Source: Miltoncostaeaceae bacterium | GTDB lineage: Bacteria; Actinomycetota; Thermoleophilia; Miltoncostaeales; Miltoncostaeaceae | Length of the DNA: 39,491 nt | Assembly (NCBI GenBank): GCA_030598395.1 | Contig: JAUVPZ010000002.1 | Coordinates: 1-39,491 of the forward strand | Reading direction: 5' to 3' | Part shown: in pieces, positions 7,982 to 10,865 of the stretch | How the letters are laid out: each line of letters starts with the position of its first letter | Position numbering within the stretch: the first letter of the stretch is position 1 | The notes under the pieces: generated by a model | Seen by the model: only the letters and a program-made list of their open reading frames with translations | Told to the model about the DNA's origin: nothing | The model's database searches: none | Position numbers and translations under genes: made by a program

Positions 7982-8304
7982 CGCTCGACCCTAGCGGCTC
8001 GCGCCGACGGCCGGCGACTGCTGAGGCCGGTAGTCGAAGTCCACAATTCTTGCTTTGGCTCTTGAGAGAAAGGGGTCTTGGGCAACGGCGGTGCTGGTGA
8101 TGGGGAAAGGGTGGACGGGTGCCGCGATCCCGGCCGTCGAGGGGGATACGACGGCTGCACGGCTGTGGGTGGGACCGTGGGTTCCGAGCGCCACCCGTCC
8201 ACGGAGTCCACAGCGGGATGCTGTGTGGAGGTCGAGGCGGCAGATCGTGTGGAGGGATGACCCGGTCTCAACACGGGTCGGTCCACAGCGGTCCAGGATG
8301 GCGG
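7982..8304. other. dnaN-dnaA intergenic region with TCCACA/TGTGGA cores; possible secondary origin element
   Basis: 323-bp noncoding gap with five DnaA-box-core hexamers at 8040-8045, 8207-8212, 8224-8229 (complement), 8248-8253 (complement) and 8282-8287; none is a perfect 9-mer TT(A/G)TCCACA. Confidence 0.45.
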
Positions 8305-9681
8305 TCATGCGCCACCCGTGAGGCGAGTCGTGAGCAACTGCACTGCCGAGTAGAGCTCGTTCTCGGTGGCCATTCGCTCGCGCACCTTCTCGACGGCATG
8401 CATCACGGTGGTGTGGTCACGCCCGCCGAAGGCCCGGCCGATGGCCGGCAGGGAGGAGTCGGTGAGCTCGCGGCTGAGGTACATGGCCACCTGGCGCGGG
8501 CGGACGATGCGGCGCGTGCGCTTGTGTCCGGTGAGTTCGTCCAGCGAGACGCCGTAGTAGCGGCAGATCTCACTCTGGATGGTGTCGATCCCGACCACGC
8601 CGTCGCCTGCTGGATACAGCTCCCGCAGTACCTCGCCGGCCAGATCCACTGTGACCGGCTGGCCGGTGATCGACGCCTGGGCGACCACCCGGGTGAGCGC
8701 GCCCTCGAGCGCGCGGACGTTGGTGGCGATGCGCGTTGCGATGAACGAGAGGACCTCGGGATCGTCGACCGAGTAGCCGTCGCCGCGCACGCGCCGGCCG
8801 AGGATGGCGATGCGCGTCTCGAGGTCGGGGGGCTGGATGTCGGTCATGAGGCCCATCTCGAACCGGGAGCGGAGGCGATCCTCGAGGGTGGCGATGGCCT
8901 TGGGCGGCCGATCCGAGCTGATGACGATCTGCTTGCCGCTGTCGAACAGCGCGTTGAAGGTGTGGAAGAACTCCTCCTGTGTGCCGTCCTTGCCCTCCAG
9001 CGATTGGATGTCGTCGATGGCGAGGATGTCCGTGGAGCGGTAGCGGTCCTTGAACGAGCGGATCCCTCCGTCGCGAAGGGCGTTGATGAACTCGTTCGTG
9101 AACGTCTCGGCCGACGCGTAGTGAAAGGTGAGGCCCGGGTGGTTCCGGACCACGAAGTGCCCGATCGCGTGGAGGAGATGGGTCTTGCCGAGCCCGACGC
9201 TGCCATAGATGAAGAGCGGGTTGTAGGCCCGCGCAGGAGCCTCGGCCACGGCGACCGCGGCGCCGTGCGCCAAGCGGTTGGAGGGTCCGATGACGAACGC
9301 CTCGAAGGTGAGCCGCGACTGCAGGCCCGGCGCGCGGCGCTCGTCCGGCAGCGGCTCGGCCGGCGCCTCCAGCGCGCCGTCGGCTTCTCCGGCGTCGCCG
9401 TGGGACGCCGCCAGGTCGGGATGCACCACGATGCTGACGTCGACGTCCCGGCCGAGGACCTCGAAGAGCGCGTCCCGCAGCACAGTGAGGAAACGATCCC
9501 GGACCCACTTTCGCGCCCAGTCGGTGCCGACCGCGAGGGTGAGCCGATCCTCGTCGAGCGTGACGGGGTGGGCGCCGCCGAAGACGATGTCGAAGGTCGT
9601 GCCGGCCATCGTGTTGCGCAGCCGCGCAGCAGTCTCTGACCAGACCTCATCGGGGGTGGGCGAGGTGGTGGCGGTGGTCAT
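8305..9681 (-). CDS. dnaA: Chromosomal replication initiator protein DnaA
   Basis: 458 aa; NPLFIYGSVGLGKTHLLHAIGH (Walker A), ILAIDDIQSLEGK (Walker B), C-terminal GRDHTTVMHAVEKV. Confidence 0.98.
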   Translation of the reverse strand: MTTATTSPTPDEVWSETAARLRNTMAGTTFDIVFGGAHPVTLDEDRLTLAVGTDWARKWVRDRFLTVLRDALFEVLGRDVDVSIVVHPDLAASHGDAGEADGALEAPAEPLPDERRAPGLQSRLTFEAFVIGPSNRLAHGAAVAVAEAPARAYNPLFIYGSVGLGKTHLLHAIGHFVVRNHPGLTFHYASAETFTNEFINALRDGGIRSFKDRYRSTDILAIDDIQSLEGKDGTQEEFFHTFNALFDSGKQIVISSDRPPKAIATLEDRLRSRFEMGLMTDIQPPDLETRIAILGRRVRGDGYSVDDPEVLSFIATRIATNVRALEGALTRVVAQASITGQPVTVDLAGEVLRELYPAGDGVVGIDTIQSEICRYYGVSLDELTGHKRTRRIVRPRQVAMYLSRELTDSSLPAIGRAFGGRDHTTVMHAVEKVRERMATENELYSAVQLLTTRLTGGA

Positions 9682-9702
9682 GGCGCCGGCCGACCGATCT
9701 CG

Positions 9703-10437
9703 CTAGAAGAGCGCGGCCACGAGCTCGCGGCCGGCGTCGGTGAGGGTGCGTTCTCTCGCTGGGCCCCGGACCACGAGCCCCCGGTGCTCGAGGACGGCGA
9801 GCTCGCGGCCACAGGCGGCGAGCGGGCTGCCGGTCTCGCGGGCGAGCATGTCGGGCGCCGCGCTCTCCAGCTCCAGCAGCAGCGCGAGAATCGCACGCTG
9901 GAGGTCGGACGGCCCCGCGACGGGCGCCGCGCCGCCGGTCTCGACGGGCACAGCCAGCGTGACCACGGCACCACCGGCGAGGTTTGGCTGGATGTCGAGC
10001 TGACCCGCGGCGTTCGCGAGCAGGGACGCCACCAGCGGGAGACCGGCTCCAGCGCCGCGAATGAGCTCTCGCTCGGCGGCGCCGGCGGTGGTGAACCCCG
10101 GCCGAAGAGCCCCTTCCACGTCGCCGATGCCCGGGCCAGCGTCGGAGACGCGGACCGTGGCGCCACCGTCGCACACGCTGATCAGCGCGTCCTCGAAATG
10201 GGCGTGGACCAAGTTCTCGACGACCTCGCGCACCGCCAGGGCCGGGACCGTCGCCAGCTCGACCGTTGCATCGACCGCCTCTTCGAGCACGATGCCTGCG
10301 TGCGAGGACTGGAACTCGACGAGCTCCGGCGGCTCGATCGCCGTTGTGTACCGCGCCAGCCGGACCGACGCGGGCGCCCTGGCGACCGACTGAGGGCCCG
10401 GGACGAGGTGGGGGGTGAGGGGGAAGACGGAGGACAT
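9703..10437 (-). CDS. Uncharacterised GHKL/HATPase-domain protein with C-terminal winged-helix-like region, upstream of dnaA
   Basis: ATG at 10437, 244 aa. N-box REVVENLVHAHFEDA, G1-like VSDAGPGIGD, G2-like GAGAGLPLVASLL, then DLQRAILALLLELESAAPDMLARETGSPLAACGRELAVLEHRGLVVRGPARERTLTDAGRELVAALF (wHTH-like). 21-bp gap to dnaA. Confidence 0.75.
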   Translation of the reverse strand: MSSVFPLTPHLVPGPQSVARAPASVRLARYTTAIEPPELVEFQSSHAGIVLEEAVDATVELATVPALAVREVVENLVHAHFEDALISVCDGGATVRVSDAGPGIGDVEGALRPGFTTAGAAERELIRGAGAGLPLVASLLANAAGQLDIQPNLAGGAVVTLAVPVETGGAAPVAGPSDLQRAILALLLELESAAPDMLARETGSPLAACGRELAVLEHRGLVVRGPARERTLTDAGRELVAALF

Positions 10438-10730
10438 CGGCTGCCGAGGCGCGACTCTAGCCGGGTACTCGTGGGCTCCGAAAGGCCATCCGAGGGGCTG
10501 TGGACAACAAAGGCTCGAGCGTGCGGCGAAATCGTGTGATGGGGATGCACCGAACAGGTGTACGTGGTCGCATGACCCCGATGCTGAGGGCGATCCGGTG
10601 GTATCCACATGGATCTCCACAGTTGTGGACGACGCCTCGCGGGGCCGCTGGTGGCCTCTGGTATGCTCGCGGCTCGGCGTCCTCGACGGCCGGGCGTCGT
10701 GGGCTGTTCACTTGGCGGAGGTGTGCGCGC
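10438..10730. other. oriC: Probable replication origin (oriC) between divergent dnaA and rpmH units
   Basis: Gene polarity flips here. TGTGGACAA (10499-10507) is the exact complement of TTGTCCACA; GTATCCACA (10601-10609) and TGTGGACGA (10624-10632) each have one mismatch; ATCTCCACA (10613-10621) is weaker. Confidence 0.7.
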
Positions 10731-10865
10731 GTGAAGCGGACCTACCAGCCCAACCGGCGCAAGCGAAAGAAGACCCACGGCTTTCGGGTCAGGATGCGCA
10801 CGCGCGGTGGGCAGGCAATCATCAAGCGTCGGCGCGCGAAGGGCCGTGCGCGGCTCTCCGTCTGA
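10731..10865 (+). CDS. rpmH: 50S ribosomal protein L34
   Basis: GTG start; [44 protein letters not shown]. Confidence 0.97.

Follow-up and report, generated by a model that had tools for sequence, protein, structure and literature searches.

A dnaA-linked GHKL ATPase-winged helix protein from three bacterial phyla is a candidate regulator of replication initiation

What is known of how the initiator protein DnaA is regulated comes mainly from E. coli, B. subtilis, and Caulobacter. In the window analyzed here, a stretch of 39,491 nucleotides from a Miltoncostaeaceae bacterium (Actinomycetota), the first gene of the dnaA operon encodes a protein in which a GHKL ATPase domain is joined to a winged helix, which raises the question of what such a protein does beside the initiator gene. 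An unstudied protein that is coupled to dnaA in more than 100 genomes of three phyla indicates a missing part of initiation control, and we consider it a strong candidate regulator of the start of chromosome replication, one that has been overlooked so far.

The gene (9703..10437, minus strand) encodes 244 amino acids from an ATG at 10437, and is followed by dnaA (8305..9681, minus strand; 458 amino acids) after a gap of 21 bp (9682..9702, minus strand) without a terminator-like site; ORF calling returned exactly the length, strand, and spacing given by the initial annotation. A longer ORF of 305 amino acids from a GTG at 10620 was rejected, as it would be translated across DnaA boxes and a conserved -10-like element. 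The minus strand carries recF, dnaN, dnaA, and the GHKL gene in this order, and rpmH (10731..10865, plus strand), rnpA, yidD, yidC, rsmG, and parA follow on the plus strand, with rpmH diverging beyond a cluster of DnaA boxes (gene names from sequence and homology). This arrangement matches that of an origin region. The gene is present in a single copy in the genome; no plasmid or phage match was found for the window, by which a mobile or phage origin was rejected, and no structured RNA was found in the region.

Two clusters of DnaA boxes flank the gene pair. Four DnaA-box-like sites (10499-10507, minus; 10601-10609, plus; 10613-10621, plus; 10624-10632, minus) make up the upstream half of a likely bipartite oriC (10499..10632), with four TCCACA cores within 10499-10629, and five such cores in the dnaA-dnaN gap (8040..8287) make up the downstream half. 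The whole window contains 24 TCCACA cores against 11 +/- 3.2 expected, a number reached in none of 100 shuffles. The core clusters on both sides place the GHKL-dnaA pair between them, in agreement with the proposed location of the gene between dnaA and a putative oriC: its start adjoins one cluster, and the second lies past dnaA. The stricter TTNTCCACA pattern with one mismatch gave nine sites where 6.6 were expected, which is not significant window-wide, and four of these nine are concentrated in 134 bp. GC skew within the window gave no sharp position for the origin.

The N-terminal part of the protein (residues ~23-167; 9937..10371, minus strand) comprises a beta-hairpin and the GHKL ATPase domain, in which the N-box motif REVVENLVHAHFEDA (E71, N75, H78), the G1 motif DAGPGIGD (D99, G101, G103), and the G2 motif GAGAGLPLV (G128, G130, G132) are present. 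Pfam HATPase_c matched the window protein above its cut-off (E=4e-8; 34 bits versus 26.4) and was matched by 34/34 aligned family members. AF2 modeling with nine sequences predicted a two-domain protein (pLDDT 81.9, pTM 0.77), of which the ATPase part resembles histidine-kinase catalytic domains with modest TM-scores (Foldseek). Pfam, residues, model, and Foldseek all support membership of the GHKL superfamily as defined by a HATPase fold with N, G1, and G2 boxes. Among 102 distinct proteins with a usable adjacent dnaA, residues N75, H78, D99, G101, G103, G128, G132, G145, and G156 are invariant, and residue 71 is Glu in 99 (97%) and Ala in the other three. The resulting E-x-x-x-N pattern is typical of GyrB, MutL, Hsp90, and SpoIIAB, in which the Glu acts as a base. 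No ATPase data are available; judged from this pattern and the near-invariant ATP site, binding of ATP is very likely, and its hydrolysis, or phosphotransfer, is possible.

The C-terminal part (residues ~170-244; 9706..9930, minus strand) is a winged helix with a MarR/AspA-like fold, as supported by conservation, AF2, and fold search. Pfam DprA_WH matched it just above the cut-off (E=5e-5; 23.7 bits versus 22.9), and many of the 34 aligned members also match DNA-binding winged-helix families such as TrmB or MarR. The domain was modeled confidently when taken alone (pLDDT 93), and the model resembles AspA-DNA complexes and MarR regulators (TM about 0.8-0.89). In the 102 distinct proteins R211 of the recognition helix is conserved in 96% and R230 of the wing in 93%, and E201 is conserved as well, so that three helices, a wing, and conserved basic residues in recognition helix and wing are all in place. 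The recognition sequence (window residues 204-216) is of the type A-x-C-G-R-E-L in the window's family, changed from S-T-A-Y-R-D-L, the typical form of a recognition helix, in most other groups; DNA binding in the window's own family may differ in specificity or be weaker. The initial annotation had recognized a HATPase core with N, G1, and G2 boxes followed by a compact wHTH-like C-terminus, and both calls are borne out: structure prediction, which it had named as a possible refutation, yielded a GHKL fold and a winged helix. Its view that the protein is not a conventional histidine kinase likewise holds, as Pfam found no HisKA or receiver domain in the window protein and none of the HisKA type in the members, and the AF2 model contains no DHp/H-box, only the hairpin and one helix preceding the ATPase domain.

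Linkage to dnaA was assessed in 150 full-length loci, some of which are repeats of one gene. In 138 of these dnaA lies directly downstream on the same strand, 131 by an automatic rule and seven (L002, L019, L030, L041, L064, L072, L122) in which the dnaA frame is split or extended upstream. The remaining 12 are located at contig ends; for eight of them, from six genomes, dnaA at base 1 of that contig closes the join, and in the other four the contig stops shortly beyond the gene, 5 bp past it in three and 318 bp past it in one. The gap to dnaA is below 60 bp in most loci. No counterexample to the linkage was seen among the 150 full-length loci from three phyla, and the second refutation named by the initial annotation, homologues that are not linked to dnaA, was thus not borne out; the linkage was confirmed at the window itself, and its age and breadth had not been part of the initial annotation. 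Ten genomes of the window's family had no match to the protein; in nine of these the assembly contains no dnaA either, and in the tenth dnaA is matched only in part (residues 249-456). In L139 and L039-L042 the GHKL gene and dnaA remain paired on a rearranged side where rpmH is not adjacent, which indicates that dnaA, not rpmH, is the gene to which it is linked. Moreover, tree distances of the GHKL protein and DnaA, calculated for 85 of the 102 distinct proteins, are correlated (r=0.50; 0/500 permutations), and both trees recover as clades the lettered families that have at least two members. Neither tree has the Bacillota group as a clade, and the GHKL tree, when midpoint-rooted, splits the Zipacnadia group. 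Because the deep branches are unresolved, a single vertical origin is not claimed.

A profile built from 34 members (A1) detected the family in 97 of 247 sampled genomes of Actinomycetota, spread over more than 20 families. Within the window's own class 65/199 sampled genomes were positive, or 66 if one weak partial match is included, all in three families (f1, f2, and f4). About 39 of 399 genomes were positive in the phylum of a Bacillota MAG (42 minus three short matches), 5/251 in that of a Zipacnadia MAG, and none of 150 in Pseudomonadota, in a search without a positive control of its own. Carrier genomes contain one full-length copy each. The weak matches L010-L017 and L046 were rejected; they are without dnaA and resemble other GHKL proteins.

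Upstream DnaA boxes are likewise shared. They are found at similar distances before the gene in the window's family, with a pattern like TTGTCCACAGCTGTGGACATGCCTGTGGATAAC, and also cluster there in Rubrobacter-like and Bacillota genomes ("Rubrobacter-like" and "Coriobacteriia-like" are working family labels that rest on inference). The concentration occurs in every group, and few members are exceptions, among them L007, L008, L009, and L112, with few or no boxes. Almost without exception, the blocks conserved in the intergenic regions correspond to DnaA boxes or to promoter elements. A -10-like hexamer, TAGAGT (10454..10459, minus strand), lies ~16 nt before the ATG and is aligned with GGTAGaGT in relatives; a consensus promoter scan of the window found nothing. 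Footprinting of intergenic alignments recovered mainly DnaA boxes and did not define an operator, and a CCTGC-type element that recurs after the boxes in some families is not established as one. A further block conserved in the window's family, with consensus CGTTTTTCCCGCtCaCACG, is not a DnaA box and is, on sequence grounds only, a candidate operator or unwinding element, to be taken as a lead. In Rubrobacter-like genomes the word CCTGCAAAA occurs twice in the rpmH-GHKL gap, flanking a triplet of DnaA boxes (L127-L130, L155, L156, L161), and is a possible unwinding or regulator site.

With the predicted fold and the linkage established, the function of the protein remains inferred, as do ATP hydrolysis and sequence-specific DNA binding. 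A role in dnaA transcription or in initiation is the best reading by inference, without binding or biochemical data. More specifically, the protein would be an ATP-switched DNA-binding regulator that is made together with DnaA and acts on the adjacent oriC/dnaA promoter, a proposal to which, lacking ATPase or DNA-binding data, we give an even chance of being right. ATP binding would change how the GHKL domain dimerizes, and thereby how far apart, or how accessible, the two winged helices are; the protein would bind the rpmH-GHKL intergenic region, which is both oriC half and operon promoter, and tune, by its ATP state, the transcription of the operon that it shares with dnaA, or the opening of the origin, and hydrolysis through E71 would reset the switch. 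Against this proposal, no operator was defined, and the CGTTTTTCCCGCtCaCACG block, alone among those conserved in the window's family in having no explanation, has diverged in the window's own copy (10516..10537, minus strand); the changed recognition helix of the window's family and the Ala at residue 71 in three of 102 members also count against it. A wider version, that these proteins form an ancient, undescribed class of initiation controllers in deep-branching Actinomycetota, the Bacillota phylum, and Zipacnadia relatives, in which an ATP/ADP-sensing GHKL switch with an origin-binding winged helix is co-produced with DnaA as a second nucleotide sensor at the origin, is offered only tentatively and may well not hold.

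Two other readings, each unlikely and neither excluded, compete with the regulator. The protein could be a SpoIIAB/RsbW-like kinase or partner-switch protein, the GHKL domain of which phosphorylates or sequesters a partner, possibly DnaA, while the winged helix serves merely to dock the protein at the origin. SpoIIAB and RsbW are likewise small cytosolic GHKL proteins, and the SpoIIAB-type catalytic Glu and Glu-Asn of the N-box, the SpoIIAB-like lid (DxGPGIxDxxxAxxPGFTTA), a match to TIGR01925 (anti-sigma F; E=6e-5), and a profile match to an anti-sigma F factor in the PDB (E=5e-4) all fit this reading, as do the other Bacillota matches above threshold, which are only ORFs of SpoIIAB size (142-162 amino acids). 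However, the TIGR01925 score is 22.9 bits against a curated cut-off of 135, by which membership of this anti-sigma family was rejected, and HATPase_c fits better than HATPase_c_2 (34/34 versus 12/34 members). In contrast to SpoIIAB/RsbW, the window protein has an extra N-terminal hairpin and a C-terminal winged helix that is conserved down to residues, and its gene adjoins dnaA; neither a STAS/SpoIIAA gene nor a sigma gene was seen next to it. A single narrow literature search yielded nothing on DnaA phosphorylation, which shows little.

Alternatively, the protein could be a direct DnaA partner or orisome factor that binds DnaA or origin DNA and helps or blocks assembly of the DnaA filament without a role in transcription. 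The linkage to dnaA rather than to rpmH in L139 and L039-L042 and the adjoining DnaA-box clusters suit this reading, whereas the winged helix is a transcription-factor-like domain and, as the same region also contains the operon promoter, sequence does not tell the two roles apart. Confidence left over from the regulator and these two readings goes to other roles. Finally, that the protein is the relic of a histidine kinase, or a fragment of an ordinary two-component sensor, with no function at the origin and a location due to an old operon accident, is very improbable and largely refuted: among solved structures, histidine kinases such as KinB, CpxA, and EnvZ come closest to the ATPase domain, but the phosphoacceptor domain is absent, the N-box Glu is conserved, the ATP site is under strong constraint, and a single full-length copy per genome keeps a fixed partner gene over three phyla despite rearrangement of its neighbors.

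The regulator reading can be set beside known systems. Histidine-kinase catalytic domains (HATPase_c; KinB, CpxA, EnvZ, PhoQ) share the ATP-binding fold and the G1 and G2 boxes and gave the best profile and fold matches, whereas the window protein has no DHp/H-box, sensor, or membrane part, carries the catalytic Glu in the N-box, and continues into a winged helix. GyrB, MutL, and Hsp90 have the E-x-x-x-N N-box with its general base in common with it, and a MutL profile weakly matches residues 63-106; membership of GyrB/MutL was rejected, as the window protein is a single-domain ATPase that passes directly into a winged helix without a transducer domain. The fold of the winged helix is that of MarR, TrmB, and the centromere-binding protein AspA, but it is presumably controlled by the GHKL domain rather than by a small ligand or partner. 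Csa3/CARF-winged-helix regulators likewise fuse a nucleotide-binding domain to a related winged helix; CARF senses cyclic oligoadenylate, whereas the window protein has GHKL/ATP and its site is oriC/dnaA. In a PADLOC defense search the window protein had no match, and for its relatives there were matches only to the Csa3/CARF winged helix and to a small number of other proteins. The proposed role, setting the level of DnaA or the firing of the origin, is comparable to that of the DnaA/oriC regulators YabA, Soj, SirA, DnaD, Hda, and SeqA, none of which, to our knowledge, is described as a GHKL-winged helix protein. Both domains are thus well known, and nucleotide-sensing winged-helix regulators such as Csa3 exist; their combination coupled to dnaA is apparently undescribed, as a literature search that left most subscription journals out of scope found no description of it.

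Several loci showed individual features. In three Bacillota genomes (G474, G487, G557) the sole match is a GHKL ORF of 142-162 amino acids, and these are possibly the nearest relatives that are unlinked to dnaA. In most Coriobacteriia-like families (L131, L132, L137-L139, L141, L142, L149, L150, L157, L158) the profile match stops after the ATPase domain, and the match of the adjacent dnaA to the window's DnaA is weaker in these loci than in others. In L122 (G855; 442-1830) dnaA occupies two adjacent reading frames, which is a frameshift or an assembly error, and the GHKL gene beside them is intact.
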